Source: a virus
Virus record (IMG/VR): IMGVR_UViG_3300030328_000329
Location: 1 to 29,079 of that record
DNA: 29,079 bases
Direction: 5' to 3' (one strand)
The notes beneath the pieces were generated by a model, which ran no database searches, was not told the origin of the DNA, and was given only the letters and a program-made list of their open reading frames with translations. Of the stretch, positions 1,557-23,423 are shown one piece after another. Numbering within the stretch: the first letter of the stretch is position 1; each line of letters starts with the position of its first letter. Position numbers and translations under genes: made by a program.

Positions 1557-4500
1557 TCAATCAATTTTCGCGTCAAGTGCATTTGTCATCTCATTTACTG
1601 AATCTTTCCACCAATAAACTTTCATAAAAGGCAATGCGCGAATTAAGTCTTTTGCTCCAGCACCAGTATCTCCAACTAACATTTCTTTTAAAGCTTGTGC
1701 ATATGTAAACCCAATAGACGGTGCAGCACCAGTAATGCCTATAACGGCCTCTGAAGCTGTATCTCTATATTTTGGACCAATAATACCTAAACCTATATCT
1801 GGTCCATTGAAAGCGTTTATAGTATGCATAGAGGTATAATATATATCTGAATATAAAGCGGCTAAACCAGATTGATCAAATGACCTAGCAAACTTATCAC
1901 TATAACTCATTTTATCCCAAGCCCATTCTGGTGTTTTTATTTTCAATGACATATAAGCAAGTATCATAGCCATTGCCGCCGCAGTAGCTCTGTTCTTTGC
2001 AGTTCCATTTGCATATGCAAGTGTAATTTTATTAACTGCTGCAAAAGCATATGAGTAAAACTGTAGTGGCATAGCCAATATACCACTCTCTATTCTTGTA
2101 TATCCTTTAACTTGTGCATCTTCTACAGGATTTTTAAATCCAGCTTTACGCATTGTTTCTAATCTTACATAAACAATCCCATCCATCAATATTGGCTTAT
2201 CTGCTGGTGTACCCATAAGTATTGTATTCATTACACCACCATTTAATGCACGACGAAATGCAACAGTAGCATCTTGATCTTTCCATTTTTCTGTATTACC
2301 TACATACAAATCTCTATTACTTTTTTGAAAAGGTTGTTTAGCAATTCGTATTGCAAGGTCATCTGTTATACCAGCTTGTGCCATAAATTGTGCATCTTGA
2401 TCTGTTATCTTTTGTTTTTTAGATATCTTAACAGATAAATCAATTATTTTATGACTACGTGCAATAGAATCCCAAAACTTAAATGTATTTGTAATAGGTC
2501 CAAGTCCATTTAAAGCATAAAAAACATCACGTGCTTTGTCCCATATGCCATTTCTAAGAGGATTACCAACTTCTTCAGATACTTGACGCATATGCAAAGC
2601 ACCAAGAACTGTATCATTACCTTCTCCAGTAAAATCTAAGTCTTTTCTTGATATATTTTTTAAATTGCTATCAATCATATCAAACATACTTTTAAAAAAC
2701 ACTTTTGTTTCATGTTCCATTAGTATTTTTGATGGCTCTGATAATGCAGCTAATCCAGCAGAACCAAGAAAATTAGTTTCTGCAGCTCTTCTTAATATTA
2801 AAGCCATTTTATTATCTAAACGATCTGGATTCTTTATAAGTGTACCAACAATACGATCATAAAGATGTTTAAAATTCATTACATCTTCTTGTACTGATTC
2901 TATACTTTGCCCAACTCTTTCACCATGTCTTTCAATTTCAAATATTACCTCATCAATATCTTTTAAATCAAATTTCTTTTTAAATTCATACATTGGAGCA
3001 GTTCTTTGAACATAAGCAAACATAACTTTAGCTACATCAGTTTCTATAAACTCAGCTACAAGTTCATTTGGAATATCTAATTTTCTATGCTTTAAATGTT
3101 TTGATTTACCAGCACCAAAATAAGTATTATCTGGATTTGCAAAATCGTTTTCACCCAAAATAGAATCTATAATATTTTCAACACGTGCATTTACTTCAAT
3201 GTCATCTATTGATAATTCTTTTTGATTCCATCTAGTTTGCTCTAAACCTGTAAATTCATCTATTGCTGTATCTTCTGTCCATACTCTAGCATTAACATAA
3301 TCTAAAGAACCATCTTCTTTTAAGATTGGTTCCTGTATCCATTTTTTTAATATACCAGCAAGTTTTGCTCTATTTGCACGTATGTAATCTTTATTCCAAT
3401 ATCGAGGAAAAAATACTTCATCTAATACTTCACCTTTAATATTGCGTATTTTGTTGTCTGCTGCTTTAATACCAGTTTCATTTTTTAATAGTTCTTGTCT
3501 ATAATAACTTATTGATCTTGTTTTACTTATAAATGCACCACGTAATTTATCTCCTAATAATGGCAATAAATTTTCAAAATATATTTCAAAGTTTTCTGGT
3601 TGCAATCTTCTAAGATCAACTATGCCTTTTCTTTTTTTGTCATATCCTTTTTTTAATCTATTACGTAATTGTAAAATACTATCTGTTTGTTTAAACGGAA
3701 TATTATTTTCTTTTAATGCATTTATTATTATACTCTTTGGCATACGAAGAATATCTTCATTTGCCATTCCAACAAATTCCATAGCTTTGTCAGATAAATT
3801 GTATTTTGCAATTATTTTATTTAATAAATCTAATTCTTCTTTAAATGCTTTTTTACTTGTTAAACTATTAATGTATTTTTGATCTTTTGCTGCATCTGAT
3901 TCTAAAAATTCTAATATGTTATCACGTAATGCTTGTTGTTTTTCTGTAAGACCTCTTGTTTGAAATTGTTCTTCAAGTGAATCTAATATTTCTTTTTTCT
4001 TTGACATATTAGAAGATGCATAATTAGCAGTTTTTGATACACTTACAGCAATTTTATTTAATAATTCATCAATATCATTTTCTGTTCTTTTTATTTTTTC
4101 TTTAAATTTTTCAACTCTAAATTTCATTTCATGTAAATTACCAAGAATGCCTACTTCTTGTAACATACCATCCCATTCTTCAAAAAACTTTCTTACAAGT
4201 TCTACTGCTTTTGATTCTTCACGTGTTAAATCTTTAGATTTGCTTATATATTTATTACCAACTCTATCTAAAAACTCTTCAAAAAGTTCTTCTTTATTAC
4301 CAAATGGCATTATGTTTTTTACTTTTCTTGCTGCATTAGTTGCATTATAACCAAGTGTAAAATTACCAGAACCTTTTACCCATAAATCTGATAACTCTTT
4401 ATATAAAGCTACAACTTTACCTTGATGTATTTTAGAATCTAAATATACACTTCCGGTATCATTTTCATTTCCAAATTTAATTGCTGTTTTTTTAGTATGA

Positions 4501-5888
4501 GTTTCAAGCAATAAACCTTGATCCATAGCTAGTTTTAAACCATACAACTTAATTATTCTATTACTTGATTTATTTAACATAGCTTTTAATGGTCCAAAAT
4601 TAGTAATCTTTGCTAAAGCTTTTCCACCAATTTTTGGTGTAACTAATGTTAAATCTTCACCTTTTTCAAAAGAAACTCTTTTTATATAATCGGCTGTTGT
4701 TACCCAATCTAATTCTCTAGCTAATGGAAATATTTGTTGTTCATAATAATTTTCTGATGATTCTGAACCACCTCTTAATAAAGCACTTTCTTTATCAATT
4801 ACTTCATCTACTGCTTGTTTTTTTAAATTTACAATTTCTCCATCTAATTTTTTTATTTCATTAATTTGTTTTGTAAATTTACCACCAGGATTAGACAAAT
4901 CTATAGATTCTTCTAAATCTTTTTTAGTAGTTGATAATTCTTTTAATTTTATTTTAATATTTTTTGGGACATCTCTTGGTCTTAATCTATCAAAAGCTGT
5001 AATTCTTGCTACTGCACTTATTCTTTTTAAATAACCTTCAGCATTTTCTTCTTGTTTAATAAGCTTTTCAATATCTTTTTCTAATACAGCTTTTCTTTGT
5101 CTTAACCAATTTAAAGATTGATTTTTTATTTTTTCTGGTAAAAGATTATAACTCATTATTTGATCATATTCTTTTGTAACCATATTTATATTTTTAGAGT
5201 CAACTGTACTACTACCTCTAAATCTATCAGAAGTTTCTTTTATATTTGTAACAAGTTGATTTTCAGCTACAGCCCTTCTTGACATTGGTATTGATATTAA
5301 ACCACCAAGAATACCACCAGCTACTCCAGCACCAAATATATTAAATGCAACTTCTGTAGGTGTAGATAAAGGATCAAATGGATGTCTTAATGCTTCTGCT
5401 CCAGCTTGTAATGTTGCTGTCCCTAAACCAACTCTAAGTGCAGATCGACTAATACCTAAAGCTGGACCACCAAAAGGCAATGCAATAAAATTTATTGGAT
5501 CAAAAAATCCAGCAGCTAATTGACTAACCAAAGAAGAATCCATTAATGTTCTTCTTCTTTCAAATGAATCTTGTATATTTGTAATTATTTTTTTGTAGTG
5601 ATATTCATTATTAGCTTTATTTAAAGTATCACTAAAATCTACATACCTTTCGTAATCAGGCATTTCTGTAGGATTAAAGTTTTCATCAACTTCTTGTGCT
5701 TTATTATCAAAAAATAATTTAGCTCTTTCATAAAGTGGATCGTATGAATATGCAAATTGCGCTCCAAATGTTTCACCAAATGTTGGACCATCACGATAGG
5801 TTTGTGTTCTTCTATCATAATAAGAACGATACCTAATACCAGGTTGTACAATAGGTGGAGCTAAACTTCTTGGTATACTTTCATTCAT
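1557..5888 (-). CDS. Large internal virion protein (T7 gp16-like position)
   Basis: A 1443-residue protein, the largest in the window, directly upstream of the tail fibre in transcription order. This is the place and size of T7 gp16, the internal core protein that is ejected and helps DNA cross the envelope. Residues 122-201 include FFDPINFIALPFGG and a glycine-rich hydrophobic stretch (about 183-201) that could insert in a membrane. Charged coiled-coil segments rich in Lys and Glu lie around residues 240-365 and 580-720. The C-terminal third has a second hydrophobic stretch (MPLQFYSYAFAAVNKITLAY). I do not see the N-terminal lytic transglycosylase of T7 gp16, so peptidoglycan cleavage is not supported. 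Its start overlaps the stop of the upstream gene by 4 bp (ATGA), implying coupled translation. Confidence 0.75.
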   Translation of the reverse strand: MNESIPRSLAPPIVQPGIRYRSYYDRRTQTYRDGPTFGETFGAQFAYSYDPLYERAKLFFDNKAQEVDENFNPTEMPDYERYVDFSDTLNKANNEYHYKKIITNIQDSFERRRTLMDSSLVSQLAAGFFDPINFIALPFGGPALGISRSALRVGLGTATLQAGAEALRHPFDPLSTPTEVAFNIFGAGVAGGILGGLISIPMSRRAVAENQLVTNIKETSDRFRGSSTVDSKNINMVTKEYDQIMSYNLLPEKIKNQSLNWLRQRKAVLEKDIEKLIKQEENAEGYLKRISAVARITAFDRLRPRDVPKNIKIKLKELSTTKKDLEESIDLSNPGGKFTKQINEIKKLDGEIVNLKKQAVDEVIDKESALLRGGSESSENYYEQQIFPLARELDWVTTADYIKRVSFEKGEDLTLVTPKIGGKALAKITNFGPLKAMLNKSSNRIIKLYGLKLAMDQGLLLETHTKKTAIKFGNENDTGSVYLDSKIHQGKVVALYKELSDLWVKGSGNFTLGYNATNAARKVKNIMPFGNKEELFEEFLDRVGNKYISKSKDLTREESKAVELVRKFFEEWDGMLQEVGILGNLHEMKFRVEKFKEKIKRTENDIDELLNKIAVSVSKTANYASSNMSKKKEILDSLEEQFQTRGLTEKQQALRDNILEFLESDAAKDQKYINSLTSKKAFKEELDLLNKIIAKYNLSDKAMEFVGMANEDILRMPKSIIINALKENNIPFKQTDSILQLRNRLKKGYDKKRKGIVDLRRLQPENFEIYFENLLPLLGDKLRGAFISKTRSISYYRQELLKNETGIKAADNKIRNIKGEVLDEVFFPRYWNKDYIRANRAKLAGILKKWIQEPILKEDGSLDYVNARVWTEDTAIDEFTGLEQTRWNQKELSIDDIEVNARVENIIDSILGENDFANPDNTYFGAGKSKHLKHRKLDIPNELVAEFIETDVAKVMFAYVQRTAPMYEFKKKFDLKDIDEVIFEIERHGERVGQSIESVQEDVMNFKHLYDRIVGTLIKNPDRLDNKMALILRRAAETNFLGSAGLAALSEPSKILMEHETKVFFKSMFDMIDSNLKNISRKDLDFTGEGNDTVLGALHMRQVSEEVGNPLRNGIWDKARDVFYALNGLGPITNTFKFWDSIARSHKIIDLSVKISKKQKITDQDAQFMAQAGITDDLAIRIAKQPFQKSNRDLYVGNTEKWKDQDATVAFRRALNGGVMNTILMGTPADKPILMDGIVYVRLETMRKAGFKNPVEDAQVKGYTRIESGILAMPLQFYSYAFAAVNKITLAYANGTAKNRATAAAMAMILAYMSLKIKTPEWAWDKMSYSDKFARSFDQSGLAALYSDIYYTSMHTINAFNGPDIGLGIIGPKYRDTASEAVIGITGAAPSIGFTYAQALKEMLVGDTGAGAKDLIRALPFMKVYWWKDSVNEMTNALDAKID

Positions 5889-12403: not shown

Positions 12404-12667
12404 TTAGTCACCATCTGTTTCAGCAATAGCTGTACCATCTGATACGTCTACAACTGAACCAGTATTGGATAGAACAGTTACATGATTAGTTGTTGGTGTG
12501 TTAGTATCTTTTACAAGAATAACATCACGAACTTTTAACATATTAGCTGAACTATTAAAATAACCAGCACTATTTACTGTAGCTATTGCATCTGTAGTTG
12601 TGTAAACCCAAGTGTTTCCATTTGAATCTCCACCCATTCTACAAAGTCCACTTGCTGCATAAGCCAT
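12404..12667 (-). CDS. Small beta-rich capsid-associated protein, possible decoration protein
   Basis: An 87-residue protein with NTWVYTTTDAIATVNSAGYF, then MLKVRDVILVKDTNTPTTNH and a C-terminal VVDVSDGTAIAETDGD. Small proteins with this 'Y.TTDA.ATVN..GYF..A...L..GD.I' pattern are commonly encoded beside capsid genes in marine and other podoviruses. A role as head decoration or head fibre protein is plausible from size, beta character and position, but unproven. A strong AGGAGG ribosome site precedes the ATG, only 14 bases after the capsid stop, which suits high expression. Confidence 0.65.
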   Translation of the reverse strand: MAYAASGLCRMGGDSNGNTWVYTTTDAIATVNSAGYFNSSANMLKVRDVILVKDTNTPTTNHVTVLSNTGSVVDVSDGTAIAETDGD

Positions 12668-12681
12668 ATTATTACCTCCTA

Positions 12682-13494
12682 TTAATTATTATCTAAGACT
12701 TCATAAACACCATTGTCATCAATAACAACAGCACCCATTGACATCATAGAGTTAGTTAAATGTGCAGCCCTTTCAGCAATATAATTTACTTCAGTTGAAA
12801 CATCTGCACCAATACCAAGTCCTACTGCTGATGTATGATAAGCAATATTCTTACCAGCAGTTATTGCTGATGTAGAAAAGATATTAAAACCTAAAAAGTT
12901 TTTCATAGTCATTCCACCAGCAAAAGGTAAATTCTGTTCACCAACAAAATCTGAACTTGCAAACTCAGTTATTAAAAATAAATCTGCAAAACCTTTTGGA
13001 TGCATAGCTAAATATCTTCCACCATCTTCTGGAATATTAGCAGTACCCATAGTTTCAAATAATGACAGTAAATCAGCTTTTGCTAACGCACTTCCTGTAT
13101 CATGAATCTGTGTACTATTAGCACCAGAGTCCATAGCAGTATACAGTATTTCGTCTGTTTTACGACCAAGAGCAGCAGCCGCACTTTTTGCAACAGCTTG
13201 TCTTTCGTCTATGTTTATTTTTAACTCATCCAATTTATCAATATACTCTGGAGCATAATAATCTTCCATAGTAGCTTCAACATTTGTATGAGCTAGTTCC
13301 ATTGGTGTTACTAAACCATTTCTTGATTTGGTGTTAGCACTACCTGTTCCTATTTTCTGAAAGCGAACAACACTTCCAGCAACATTGCCTACAGTTCTAA
13401 CTGTGTTTCTTAGCTTTGATCCCATTCTTTGATATGCTAAGTGAACGTCAGATTCAAACTGTTTGATAAAGGCTTGATCTATTGTATTAGCCAT
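12682..13494 (-). CDS. Major capsid protein
   Basis: A 270-residue protein beginning MANTIDQAFIKQFESDVHLA, with MEDYYAPEYIDKLDELKINI near residues 95-115 and AVAKSAAAALGRKTDEILYT after it. This pattern (short N-terminal helix, 'R..TLEDYE..DLID..D', 'YA.AAA.ALGR..D..I') marks a widespread family of HK97-fold phage capsid proteins in podoviruses. It sits downstream of scaffold and portal genes, as expected. The ribosome site GAGGTCGTA-ATG is good, and a candidate promoter lies upstream (13532-13559), consistent with separate high expression. No protease gene is seen and the N-terminus has no obvious cleavable scaffold domain. Confidence 0.88.
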   Translation of the reverse strand: MANTIDQAFIKQFESDVHLAYQRMGSKLRNTVRTVGNVAGSVVRFQKIGTGSANTKSRNGLVTPMELAHTNVEATMEDYYAPEYIDKLDELKINIDERQAVAKSAAAALGRKTDEILYTAMDSGANSTQIHDTGSALAKADLLSLFETMGTANIPEDGGRYLAMHPKGFADLFLITEFASSDFVGEQNLPFAGGMTMKNFLGFNIFSTSAITAGKNIAYHTSAVGLGIGADVSTEVNYIAERAAHLTNSMMSMGAVVIDDNGVYEVLDNN

Positions 13495-13612: not shown

Positions 13613-14098
13613 CTAAATTTTTAAATGATTGCAACGAAAAAATTTATAGAATACTGAATTTTCAATAGCATAATTTTTATCTTCTAACTCAAAACCACAC
13701 CATTTAAGCCAATTTATCGTTTCAAAATGATGTTTTGGGACATAATTATATATCTTTTTATAGTCACCTTGTAATAATTTTATCACACCATGACACCCTT
13801 TTAAGAATGAAATCTTATATTTATCAATACCATGTGTCCCAAGCATCCAAACAATACCACAATCTTTTTCATATTGGCAATCACACACACCTAACATAGC
13901 AATAGGTATTTGTTCTACTGCTATTGTATATGAAATAGATTCTTTATCATATAATGCAGATTGAAAAACCTCTCTTGGATCAATGTTATGAAGCTTACAC
14001 TCTTCAATATCATTATCTCTTAAATATGGATAGATTAAGTCTATATCAGAAGAGCAAGCAAATCTTAATCTAAGATTTCCAGAGCTACTAACTTCCAT
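13613..14098 (-). CDS. GNAT-like acetyltransferase fold protein (T7 gp13-like)
   Basis: About 161 residues from the ATG at 14098. An ATG at 14125 adds nine residues but leaves only GGTAG right against the start, so I prefer 14098. The layout fits phage GNAT-like proteins: LRLRFACSSDIDLIYPYLRD at the start, a middle strand IAVEQIPIAMLGVCDCQYEK, the strand VWMLGTHGIDKYKISFLKGC, and a C-terminal YVPKHHFETINWLKWCGFEL. In T7-like phages gp13 and relatives share this fold and 'VWLLGT' segment and affect virion assembly. Its position between scaffold and capsid, rather than after tail genes, is unusual. It overlaps the scaffold stop by 11 bp. Enzymatic activity is unproven. Confidence 0.6.
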   Translation of the reverse strand: MEVSSSGNLRLRFACSSDIDLIYPYLRDNDIEECKLHNIDPREVFQSALYDKESISYTIAVEQIPIAMLGVCDCQYEKDCGIVWMLGTHGIDKYKISFLKGCHGVIKLLQGDYKKIYNYVPKHHFETINWLKWCGFELEDKNYAIENSVFYKFFRCNHLKI

Positions 14099-14840
14099 TA
14101 GGATACAATCTTCTGTATCCATCATCTACCATTTTAACAAAGTCTGCATCTCTTGTTACAGGATCATGGTATCTTGGGTCTTTTTGTAGTTCTCTTAATG
14201 ATTCTCTTGTAATTTTATTAGCTGGTTCAGATTGAACATTTGGTCTATCTTTCATTTGTTCCATAAAATGCTCAAGAACCATTATACCATCTGCTGTATC
14301 TGTTATAGCTTCTAATGATTGTTGTAAATTATTTGGAAAGAATTGCTTTGACCAAAGCTCTACTGCTTGTACTCTTTCTTCTCCATTATCACCAAGTCTT
14401 TTCATTTCAGTTTCTGGATCAGGTATATTAGCATTCACACCTTCAATATATTTTTCTATACCAACAGTAAATTCTTCTTGAGATTTTCCATTTTCAAAAG
14501 AATAATCAGCCCACCATTTTAACAAAGGATTATCTGCTGACAATGATTGGTCTATATTTTCTGGCAAAATATAATCACCAACCTTTTCTGGTCTGTCCTT
14601 ATAAGATTCTGCTTGTGATTCTTCTTCCCATTGTTTTTTTAAATCTTCTTCTTTCTGACTTTGTTTTTTTTCAAGATTACTATACGATTCCAACAAAGCT
14701 TCTGGTGATTTAAATTTTTCTGGCAACCATTCTGGTCTGTCAGTTATGTCAGTTGTGTCAGCACTCTCTTGTGCTTGGGAATAAGATTCTAATGTTGTTT
14801 CACGTGAAACATCTTCAGTTGTTTGATTTTCTTCAGCCAT
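14088..14840 (-). CDS. Scaffolding protein (T7 gp9-like)
   Basis: A 250-residue acidic, Gln/Glu-rich helical protein between the portal-side genes and the capsid gene. The N-terminal third contains RPEWLPEKFKSPEALLESYS followed by NLEKKQSQKEEDLKKQWEEE, the typical 'RPEWLPEKF..PE.LA.SY.ELEKK' opening of podovirus scaffolds. The middle has LLKWWADYSFENGKSQEEF, and the C-terminus is basic-acidic mixed (DFVKMVDDGYRRLYPNGS). It would shape the procapsid and then leave. Codons 11-15 (VSRET) coincide with a perfect parS-type palindrome (14796-14811). It overlaps its upstream gene by 8 bp. Confidence 0.82.
   Translation of the reverse strand: MAEENQTTEDVSRETTLESYSQAQESADTTDITDRPEWLPEKFKSPEALLESYSNLEKKQSQKEEDLKKQWEEESQAESYKDRPEKVGDYILPENIDQSLSADNPLLKWWADYSFENGKSQEEFTVGIEKYIEGVNANIPDPETEMKRLGDNGEERVQAVELWSKQFFPNNLQQSLEAITDTADGIMVLEHFMEQMKDRPNVQSEPANKITRESLRELQKDPRYHDPVTRDADFVKMVDDGYRRLYPNGS
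14796..14811. promoter_or_regulatory. Perfect match to bacterial parS consensus (ParB site)
   Basis: The 16-base palindrome TGTTTCACGTGAAACA is identical to the consensus bound by chromosomal ParB/Spo0J proteins across bacteria. It lies in the scaffold gene and encodes VSRET. A given 16-mer is expected far less than once in 29 kb. No ParB or ParA gene is seen in the window, so binding would be by a host protein. The sequence match is direct; function is inference. Confidence 0.6.
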
Positions 14841-15096
14841 TTGTTTTTAACCTCTTTGAATGTTTTATTCTATTTTCTATTATTGCAACTAAATATCTTT
14901 GACCTTCGTGATGCATAAGCTGGTTTGGATCAATAATTGGTCCATTAACACTTTCAATACTTATACTTCTAAGGTAATTCAATACTTCCTTTCCAGCAGG
15001 AGTATCAAAAATTGCACTAACATTTTTACTTATTATTTCATCTGATTCTTTTGTTCTTTGTATCCCATCAATACCAACATAACTACTGCGTTGCAA
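14833..15096 (-). CDS. Bbp19-like small phage protein
   Basis: About 87 residues, with IFDTPAGKEVLNYLRSISIE and IIDPNQLMHHEGQRYLVAII. This 'F.TP.GK.VL..L' and 'DP..L...EGQR..V..I' pattern is that of the Bbp19 family, common beside podovirus portal genes and of unknown role. The frame extends to a GTG at 15102, but that GTG overlaps the ribosome site AAGGAGG; a TTG at 15096 has a five-base spacing and is the likelier start. Either way initiation is non-ATG and translation is coupled to the end of the portal gene (14-20 bp overlap), suggesting low expression. Confidence 0.7.
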   Translation of the reverse strand: MQRSSYVGIDGIQRTKESDEIISKNVSAIFDTPAGKEVLNYLRSISIESVNGPIIDPNQLMHHEGQRYLVAIIENRIKHSKRLKTNG

Positions 15097-16657
15097 CTTC
15101 ACCTCCTTGTTGTTGTTGCATCATTTGCTGTTGCATTTGTGCTTGTTGCATTATTTCTACAAGCTGTTTTCTTTCTCCAGCATCTCTAATAAGACTATCT
15201 GGAACACCATACTTTTTAGCAAGATAAGCAGCAACTTCTTCACCACTTACTAATAAATTCATTATTTCTGGACCAAATCCTTGTTGAACAACTTGTAACC
15301 ATTGTGTTGTTGAACTTATATCTTGTCTCGATTGTGCTTGGCTAAGTGGAGAAGATGACCTTACTTTAACTTGTCTACCATTAACTGTTGGTATTTCAAT
15401 CCTACCTTGCTTTCTAAGTATATGAACAACTCTTTGCAAAACTGGTTGTACCATTTCTGATTGCAATCTACCAAATGCAGAACCAATTTGCCTAGATAAA
15501 TCAGCCATACGTTCTGCTATTTCAGTAGCAGTAGCTGGAGTTTTATTAGGATCACCAAGCATCTCATTATATAATGCTTTCTTAATATTCATTCTCATTT
15601 CAGAAAATATAAATTGACTTACATCAAAATTGCCAGCAGCTCTTATCGGTTGCAATCCAGCAGAGTTTGGTGCTTTAGGTATAACTGTACCGGGTACTAA
15701 ACTAATTGTATCTGGATTAACAATACCATCATCATCTAGTTGATAGATGCCAGATATAGCCATTTGTGCATTCTCTAACACAAGTTGCATGGTTAAATTT
15801 GTAGTCTTGATTGCAGATAATGCATTCATAAGTGGACCACGACCATAAACTTCACCAGCACAAGTAGACCAACGAAAGCAAATATAAGGATTAGAGCCAA
15901 CACCATTGAAAGAATTGTTTCTAATAAGCGTTCTACTCTCACAATCTATAACATAATCAAAGTGAGCATCTTGATTTAACTTAGTATAATCTTTACAAAT
16001 TACTTCTAAAATCTTTGTTTTAGCATCTGGTGTGTTTTTTATCTTATCAATTAACTGTTTAGAATAACTACCGTTAGGATACAGTAAAGGAATATGAGAA
16101 TAACGAACATTTCTTTCTCGGTAAACATGGTCTATTTTATTATCTGGACCAGTATCTAATACCACATGAGGAAGTGGTATGGCTGAGAATACAATAGGTT
16201 GAACTGCATCACCTTCAGTAACATGAAGAATACCAGTGCCTACCGCCAAATCCATAAATGATTCATGGACTTCTTGACCGAAGTTTGAGTTTTGTAATAT
16301 TTCAAAAACATATTCTGTTACCTCATCTAAATCATTATTTACTGATTCACGTTGTTCTTTAGGTACTTCTGATCCAGCTATAAAATCAGCCCATCTTGCA
16401 AAATTAGGAACTAAACCTTGTTGTAATCTTGATGCAAATTCTTGCACACCAACAACTGCTGTTTCATCAAATATCTTTTCATCTCTTCTTTGCCCTATTG
16501 CTTCTGTATAAAAAGATTCTCTTTGTGGCATTGAGTATTCGTAACATTCTTCAAACAAAGGAACAAATTGATCTCTTAAAGTTTTAGCTCTTTGGTACTT
16601 ATCTAAGTATTCCTTTGCAATAGCTTCTTCAGAAAGCTTATCACCTACTATTTGCAT
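15083..16657 (-). CDS. Portal (head-tail connector) protein
   Basis: A 524-residue protein with the order of motifs seen in T7 gp8-type portals: KEYLDKYQRAKTLRDQFVPL at the N-terminus, FEECYEYSMPQRESFYTEAI, DETAVVGVQEFASRLQQGLV, and in the middle NPYICFRWSTCAGEVYGRGP with a following helix MNALSAIKTTNLTMQLVLEN. The segment PATATEIAERMADLSRQIGS matches the stem/crown region of this family. The C-terminus is a Gln/Met-rich tail (about residues 500-520), common in marine podovirus portals. It forms the dodecameric channel through which DNA is packaged and ejected. It starts on the last base of the upstream gene's stop. Confidence 0.92.
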   Translation of the reverse strand: MQIVGDKLSEEAIAKEYLDKYQRAKTLRDQFVPLFEECYEYSMPQRESFYTEAIGQRRDEKIFDETAVVGVQEFASRLQQGLVPNFARWADFIAGSEVPKEQRESVNNDLDEVTEYVFEILQNSNFGQEVHESFMDLAVGTGILHVTEGDAVQPIVFSAIPLPHVVLDTGPDNKIDHVYRERNVRYSHIPLLYPNGSYSKQLIDKIKNTPDAKTKILEVICKDYTKLNQDAHFDYVIDCESRTLIRNNSFNGVGSNPYICFRWSTCAGEVYGRGPLMNALSAIKTTNLTMQLVLENAQMAISGIYQLDDDGIVNPDTISLVPGTVIPKAPNSAGLQPIRAAGNFDVSQFIFSEMRMNIKKALYNEMLGDPNKTPATATEIAERMADLSRQIGSAFGRLQSEMVQPVLQRVVHILRKQGRIEIPTVNGRQVKVRSSSPLSQAQSRQDISSTTQWLQVVQQGFGPEIMNLLVSGEEVAAYLAKKYGVPDSLIRDAGERKQLVEIMQQAQMQQQMMQQQQGGEVATQ

Positions 16658-22483: not shown

Positions 22484-22773
22484 CACTTAAACAAAAATGG
22501 TGGGAATGGCACAAAGAAAACCCACACGTATGGAAATTATTTGCAAAGTATTCGTTGATTGCAGTTGAAGCTGGTCACAAAAAATGTTCTGCTTGGTTAA
22601 TAGTTAATCGTATTAGATGGGAAACAACTATTGTAACTAAGGGTACAGATTTTAAAATATCTAATGATTTCATAGCTTTATATGCAAGACTTTTTCATGT
22701 AAGATATCCAGAGCATGAAGGTTTTTTCAAAATAAAAAAGATGAATATGGATAGAGAATGGAGAGGTGACTAA
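22480..22773 (+). CDS. Conserved phage protein of unknown function (97 residues)
   Basis: The pattern WEWHKENPHVWKLFAKYSLI, AGHKKCSAWLIVNRIRWETT, then DFKISNDFIALYARLFHVRY and PEHEGFF is one I recognise as a widely shared phage protein family ('F...NP.VY.LF...A......G....SA..I..RIRW.T.......FKINN...A.YAR.F...P...GFF'). The function is unknown; it is often near replication genes, as here. The C-terminus is short and basic. Its start overlaps the preceding stop and its stop overlaps the next start. Confidence 0.75.
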   Translation: MTLKQKWWEWHKENPHVWKLFAKYSLIAVEAGHKKCSAWLIVNRIRWETTIVTKGTDFKISNDFIALYARLFHVRYPEHEGFFKIKKMNMDREWRGD

Positions 22774-23423
22774 TGAGTTTTAGTTTGATGGCTAAAGTAT
22801 GGAGTGATGATACCATTGATGATGGTATAAGTAAATTTATTTTACTTTGTCTTGCAGATTATGCAAACAATGAAACAGGTGAATGTTATCCAAGCTATAC
22901 ATCTATAGCAAAGAGAACAGGGTTTGCATTGCGTACAGTTAAAAGCAGAATTAAAATGCTTAATGAAAAAGGATATCTTAATATAGAATCTGGAAACAGT
23001 ATGAAGTCTAATAGATACTATCTGTATCCAAGTGAGACAAAGGTAGTGCATGACATGCACCACGTGGTGCAAGAGATGCACCCTAACCTATCAAGTAACC
23101 TAGATAACTCTATAAAAGAAGATTGGAAACCAAAAGAACAAACAATTAAATCGATTGATAGCAAACATGGAAAGGGGATACTCAATCATGACAATGAAAC
23201 ATATAAGTTTATCAACTACTATCTTGGGACAAACCCAAAGAAATACAAGGATTGGGAAAGAGCATACCACAATTGGTGTGCCAGAGAAGCTGAACGATCA
23301 GCAAATGTCACAAGCATTAAGAGCTTTAAAGCAAGTCGATCATCCAATTCTAACGGATCAGGCAATGGCTTGTATGCTGGACTCATTGCAGAGTTTTCCA
23401 ATGATCAAGAGAATCCGACGTAA
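22773..23423 (+). CDS. Replication initiator-like protein with helix-turn-helix
   Basis: A 216-residue protein. Residues 5-70 (AKVWSDDTIDDGISKFILLC, LADYANNETGECYPSYTSIA, KRTGFALRTVKSRIKMLNEK) form the winged-helix domain of HTH_36-type phage replication proteins. A linker with repeated His (VVHDMHHVVQEMHPNL, 91-106) is encoded by a cluster of palindromes (23046-23082). The C-terminal part has INYYLGTNPKKYKDWERAYH then NWCAREAERS, as in O-like or DnaD-like replication proteins. By analogy with lambda O it probably binds an origin inside its own gene and recruits host or phage helicase-loading factors. The start shares a base with the preceding stop. Its last 119-236 bases overlap the next gene in another frame. 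Confidence 0.75.
   Translation: MSFSLMAKVWSDDTIDDGISKFILLCLADYANNETGECYPSYTSIAKRTGFALRTVKSRIKMLNEKGYLNIESGNSMKSNRYYLYPSETKVVHDMHHVVQEMHPNLSSNLDNSIKEDWKPKEQTIKSIDSKHGKGILNHDNETYKFINYYLGTNPKKYKDWERAYHNWCAREAERSANVTSIKSFKASRSSNSNGSGNGLYAGLIAEFSNDQENPT
23046..23082. repeat. Overlapping palindromes in initiator gene, possible origin
   Basis: GTGCATG-A-CATGCAC (23046-23060) overlaps the perfect 16-bp palindrome TGCACCACGTGGTGCA (23056-23071); ATGCACC follows at 23076-23082. So TGCAC or its complement occurs four times in alternating orientation in 37 bp. Initiator genes of lambdoid phages carry iteron origins in such linker regions. The second palindrome shares the TG..CACGTG..CA skeleton of the parS-like site at 14796-14811. 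Confidence 0.5.
23172..23184 (+). promoter_or_regulatory. Leader motif inside initiator gene
   Basis: AAGGGGATACTCA, one base from the common block, with GGGG ten bases before the ATG at 23188. It lies within the initiator coding sequence and supports 23188 as a real start. Confidence 0.5.

Follow-up and report, generated by a model that had tools for sequence, protein, structure and literature searches.

Phage-plasmids of the P1/N15 type encode their own ParA and ParB proteins together with the cognate sites, and the loading and spreading of ParB-CTP clamps belong to established biology. A survey of parS sites was reportedly made by Livny and colleagues in 2007. Two precedents are described in the literature. 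The parS mimics of SGI1 bind the ParB of IncC plasmids, use the plasmid ParABS for the stability of SGI1 and destabilise the plasmid (PMC10954446), and unstable plasmids are stabilised when chromosomal par genes are combined with just one parS (PMC7022226).

The locus described here lies in a viral stretch of DNA of 29,079 nt, which as a whole is referred to as the window, and it shares some features with each of these systems. As in SGI1 (PMC10954446), the carrier has no Par system of its own and bears a parS mimic that matches the ParB site of another replicon, which, given the SAR11 host proposed below, would be a resident one. Unlike in SGI1, where the ParB is that of the helper plasmid and the function was shown by experiment, the ParB here is presumed to be that of the host chromosome; moreover, the site is borne by a phage in which no integrase was detected, and it lies within structural genes. 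The 16-bp palindrome is identical to the chromosomal parS, both that of the SAR11 rsmG-parA-parB region, usually present once per genome, and the Caulobacter and B. subtilis consensus; unlike those sites, it belongs to a phage and has no parAB nearby, and its role in partition is putative. A centromere on a phage genome is likewise found in the P1/N15 phage-plasmids, whereas no own ParA or ParB was detected here. Finally, the gene that houses the site and its portal-scaffold-capsid synteny resemble the T7-like scaffolds of PF05396, although conservation within that family does not extend to the variable N-terminal segment with the parS. The parts are known, and what appears to be new is how they are combined, with a single parS of the host-chromosome type preserved codon by codon in phage structural genes; no report of a solitary host-type parS in phages was found in the openly licensed literature searched.

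A chromosomal-type parS sequence in a probable phage scaffold gene

The features of the window that are relevant to the site are as follows.

14796..14811, no strand: host-type parS TGTTTCACGTGAAACA, single copy, identical to the SAR11 chromosomal site
14088..14840, minus strand: scaffold gene (T7-like capsid assembly), assigned from weak PF05396 and phrog_1052 matches and synteny; the parS is in its poorly conserved N-terminal segment
14833..15102, minus strand: small gene between portal and scaffold
15083..16657, minus strand: portal or head-tail connector (phrog_332, E=1e-97; 59% identity to Hodr)
12682..13494, minus strand: major capsid (head) protein (phrog_3437, E=9e-55)
1557..5888, minus strand: large internal virion protein (phrog_342), a family that holds parS in the relatives G337/L401 and G355/L403
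25469..25885, plus strand: SSB-like gene, the homologue of which in the relative G354/L402 holds an exact parS

The perfect 16-nt palindrome TGTTTCACGTGAAACA at 14796-14811 agrees over all 16 bp with the chromosomal-type parS consensus TGTTNCACGTGAAACA, as taken from Table 1 of PMC7022226, and is the sole match in the 29,079-nt window even when up to three mismatches are allowed. The site occupies nucleotides 30-45 of the ORF 14840..14088 on the minus strand and encodes D-VSRET, which bears out the claim of an earlier note on this DNA that an exact parS consensus coding for VSRET is present inside a scaffold gene. The same note considered the palindrome improbable by chance. This holds for the exact parS: in 29 kb, 0.9-1.2e-5 copies of TGTTTCACGTGAAACA are expected, whether the sequence is modelled as iid or as a Markov chain of order 1 or 3. 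For palindromes of any sequence it does not hold, since chance should produce about one perfect 16-nt palindrome in the window. As a 16-nt palindrome alone is not unusual here, what carries weight is that the site matches the parS consensus exactly and that it is conserved. A chance origin of the parS match is rejected on the expectation of about 1e-5 and on the controls with shuffled and matched palindromes given below. The window also contains a second perfect 16-nt palindrome, TGCACCACGTGGTGCA, at 23056-23071 within the ORF 22773-23423, likewise with a CACGTG core, which is absent from every other locus compared.

The ORF 14088..14840 matches PF05396 weakly, with 26.1 bits against a gathering cut-off of 27.1 (E=1.3e-5), as well as phrog_1052 (head assembly, E=3e-4), and its neighbours on either side are the genes for the portal (phrog_332) and for the major head protein (phrog_3437). 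The weak matches and the portal-scaffold-capsid synteny together point to a homologue of the T7 capsid assembly or scaffold protein. The nearest isolate is the Pelagibacter phage Hodr, with identities of 65% in the terminase, about 60% in the portal and 36% in the scaffold, and because Hodr was grown on the SAR11 strain HTCC1062, a SAR11-like host is suggested for the window as well. The virus is a low-GC marine podovirus, and such a host is assigned to it from the homology to Hodr and the low GC content.

The SAR11 chromosomal site and the Par proteins

A parS with at most one mismatch is present in 121 of the 147 sampled SAR11 genomes, with very few exceptions as a single copy. Where genomes were inspected closely, the site is located at the 5′ end of rsmG, where it encodes part of the peptide NVSRETF, between mnmG and parA-parB, and the phage 16-mer is identical to this chromosomal site adjoining parA-parB. 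The SAR11 ParB is canonical, with ParB_N, HTH_ParB and ParB_C domains, and has the Caulobacter ParB as its nearest solved relative. Changes of the outermost base are tolerated in the phage and host sites alike. With the same site, occurring once per genome, and a canonical ParB in SAR11, the earlier prediction that a host ParB would bind the phage parS is well supported.

On the phage side, a ParB_N domain was found in none of 38 phage records, neither in the window nor in the relatives searched, and a ParA-type ATPase (AAA_31) in none of 22 records, the window included. The earlier statement that the window encodes no ParA or ParB is consistent with these searches, and a phage-encoded ParABS of the P1/N15 type is rejected for the records covered. 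A tyrosine integrase was likewise found in none of 20 phage records, which, as far as enzymes of this type go, argues against a prophage or an integrating lifestyle.

The identity with the host site might also be explained by neutral capture, in which fragments of the host rsmG with its parS would have been carried along functionless. While the reading frame and the codons are indeed the same as in the NVSRETF of the host rsmG, the phage flanks are unlike rsmG, the site has survived divergence that altered approximately 38% of the shared codons, and copies are found in more than one gene as well as in noncoding DNA, which makes such a neutral origin very improbable.

Conservation of the site at the DNA level

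The relatives used for comparison were in part retrieved by the motif itself and in other parts by homology blind to parS. In addition, all IMG/VR contigs were scanned independently of codon choice, using a codon-degenerate VSRET pattern whose distance to the conserved PEW motif downstream was confined to a fixed range. First, all 30 contigs with VSRET in the scaffold context use the codons GTT-TCA-CGT-GAA-ACA; the full 16-mer is present in 27 of them, and in the other three the outermost base alone is changed. Next, when the contigs are dereplicated into lineages less than 95% alike, each of the five VSRET codons is the same in 18 of 18 lineages, and across these same lineages the R, P, L, K, E and F codons of the neighbouring RPEWLPEKF motif vary. 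The probability of the observed set of VSRET codons, estimated from the codon usage of the same genes, is about 0.013 per lineage, although the product of these values is not a true p-value because the lineages share ancestry. Between lineages, a median of 38% of the shared scaffold residues differ in codon. Finally, the distance from the site to the ATG ranges from 23 to 65 nt across lineages, within a scaffold segment that is otherwise unconserved and rich in indels. In the clade of the window itself, all six members, close relatives by scaffold homology that are 83-88% identical, have the exact 16-mer, which alone proves little because the bases around the 16-mer are also kept.

Selection on the VSRET peptide in the scaffold, with the parS match stemming from coincidence or codon bias, would be compatible with the site being in frame in most of the relatives, and just two frames through parS are open, VSRET being one of them. 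Such selection does not account for zero synonymous variation in 18 lineages at a probability of about 0.013 each, for identical DNA in unrelated genes, for the noncoding parS copy of the relative L041 described below, or for the unconserved and indel-rich scaffold segment that flanks the site. On the codon invariance and the noncoding copy we reject peptide-level selection for this clade, barring a bias in the retrieval, and regard it as extremely improbable. The earlier note had proposed the synonymous bases of VSRET in relatives as a check on its reading, and with the exact codons kept in 18/18 lineages and 30/30 codon-free matches the outcome is in its favour. The parS sequence rather than the peptide is conserved and under selection, since it is also found in noncoding DNA and in unrelated genes and its distance from the start codon varies.

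Alternative locations of the site

In the relative L041 an exact parS is located in the noncoding gap between the portal gene and the small pre-scaffold gene, the homologue of 14833..15102. Three further relatives have no parS in the scaffold gene; two of these (G337/L401 and G355/L403) have an exact copy in the large internal virion protein instead, and in the third (G354/L402) the SSB-like gene contains one within its C-terminal linker. A control with the reversed pattern gave no matches in the relatives without a scaffold parS. The parS is usually present in one copy per phage genome, and nearly all of the phages considered here keep one. In a tree of 88 scaffolds the in-scaffold parS label requires at least two to three changes, and gains, losses or relocations of the scaffold parS must therefore have occurred.

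Several imperfect sites were also observed. G304 (L406) has, besides the exact scaffold site, a one-mismatch site near position 2793 (GTTTCACGTGAAAC core intact, last base C), which lies in the internal virion protein family where its relative L401 keeps an exact parS. A recurrent one-mismatch variant, TGTTTCACATGAAACA, which encodes VSHET, occurs near 15010 in L485, 6035 in L492, 6154 in L432 and 4021 in L204, in the N-terminal parts of scaffolds and at the C-terminus of homologues of the window gene 13613-14125. Two loci with one to two mismatches that encode DSRET and have a GC content of 0.45 (L404 and L405) were left out of the parS counts.

The varying location bears on whether the palindrome might instead be bound by some other DNA-binding protein, or serve the late operon of the phage in regulation, in packaging or as an RNA element. 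The usual position, early in the scaffold gene and flanked by the portal and capsid genes, would be in line with such an element, but the location varies (scaffold, upstream gap, internal virion protein, SSB-like gene), the ParB consensus is matched across the full 16 bp, and changes of the outermost base occur in phage and host sites alike; we therefore consider this explanation improbable. A promoter, a packaging signal or a local roadblock is unlikely because the site moves between genes, and the role as a roadblock, earlier put forward as a candidate, is disfavoured for a fixed element as the location varies among relatives. An RNA hairpin was considered as well and rejected as unremarkable (z=-0.64).

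Prevalence among phages

In a set of 80 loci (694 kb) chosen by terminase homology blind to parS, there are four exact parS sites, and nine sites when up to one mismatch is allowed. In the same loci, 60 shuffled control palindromes had no exact match, and 12 had none at one mismatch. All four of the exact sites are in the N-terminal part of the scaffold, and two belong to lineages that the other samples had not contained. Across all of IMG/VR, parS is found in at least 120 contigs versus 11 and 5 contigs for two dinucleotide-matched palindromes with the TCACGTGA core, and the excess over shuffled sequence in other phages, another check proposed for the site, is thus evident. Among the 120 parS matches listed, 103 loci have a single site, some of them in structural, packaging or lysis genes, and ParB_N is above the cut-off in 2 of 50 records among the single-site matches listed. 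Two of the 27 scaffold parS copies of the codon-free scan occur among the 120 matches listed, and the matches listed may therefore, as a rough guess, represent perhaps 5-10% of the IMG/VR total.

Single parS sites also occur in unrelated contexts, among them the gene for the small subunit of a terminase (L108) and a portal gene (L099). In a viral contig of 63% GC (L115), an exact parS is located near 13214, about 21 codons into the gene 12455-13291 of the head-scaffolding family phrog_3927, and this occurrence in a different scaffold family is possibly an independent case.

The parS is absent from most of 80 loci sampled by scaffold homology, records of more than 25 kb included, and absence is commoner at a GC content above 0.40. 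Out of 19 phage isolates, 17 lack anything close to parS, including HTVC010P, so that the site is no general requirement of SAR11 phages. The isolate Hodr has a version of parS, TGTTTCAAATGAAACA, with two mismatches and the central CG lost, which is likely a poor or non-binding site. HTVC027P (MN698241), a cultured SAR11 phage from another lineage, carries CGTTTCACGTGAAACA at 16412-16427, a noncoding site in the gene gap 16208-16498 with one mismatch at the outermost base. Scaffold homologues found in 4 of 297 SAR11 assemblies have no parS and resemble those of the HTVC011P/HTVC041P kind.

A model for the function of the phage parS

The 16-mer is likely a functional host-type parS under selection at the DNA level, that is, a solitary 'borrowed centromere' that would load the host ParB, and the virus would probably in this way recruit the chromosome-segregation protein of its host to its own DNA. 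In the model, host ParB with CTP would load at the phage parS and slide along the phage genome as clamps, and the benefit would come from ParB on the phage genome as a whole; an effect of this kind is suggested by the site having a nearly free position and yet being kept in about one copy. The payoff may, with chances that we put slightly short of even, lie in positioning, segregating or organising the replicating phage DNA through the host ParA/SMC. The main alternative payoff, rather less likely, would be the titration of ParB off the single host parS, perhaps as a side effect of positioning.

In the strict form of this alternative the phage copies would act as a decoy, stripping ParB from the single host parS and thereby blocking segregation and division, with the ParB on the phage DNA itself being useless. 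As the host usually has one parS, a few phage genomes would outnumber the host site, and Caulobacter cells are killed by a plasmid that bears two parS sites, while parS at ectopic positions damages their division (PMC5815017). A decoy would, however, be expected in several copies per genome, yet nearly all of the phages keep one, and we consider it unlikely as the primary function. The position independence of parS fits both a decoy and partition and discriminates neither.

The preferred reading, a parS that brings host ParB onto the phage genome, can tentatively be taken further. In apparently non-integrating phages of SAR11, the most abundant bacteria of the ocean, a single host centromere might serve as a cis-acting passport, with ParB clamps tying the phage genome to the host ParA/SMC for positioning or segregation, and this might recur independently in unrelated phages such as that of 63% GC; such an extended model is a possibility that we hold with less than even confidence. 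If it is true, infected or carrier-state cells would perhaps pass phage genomes to both daughters.

One synonymous recoding would remove the site and leave the protein unchanged, which offers a clean experimental handle. A borrowed parS of this kind could also explain the over-representation of isolated parS motifs in viral contigs without ParB. If the borrowed parS is functional, phages would exploit the chromosome segregation of their host in cis with as few as 16 bp, kept under purifying selection in essential genes, and the borrowed-centromere idea of SGI1 would then cover SAR11 phages as well, and possibly a large number of phages unrelated to them.
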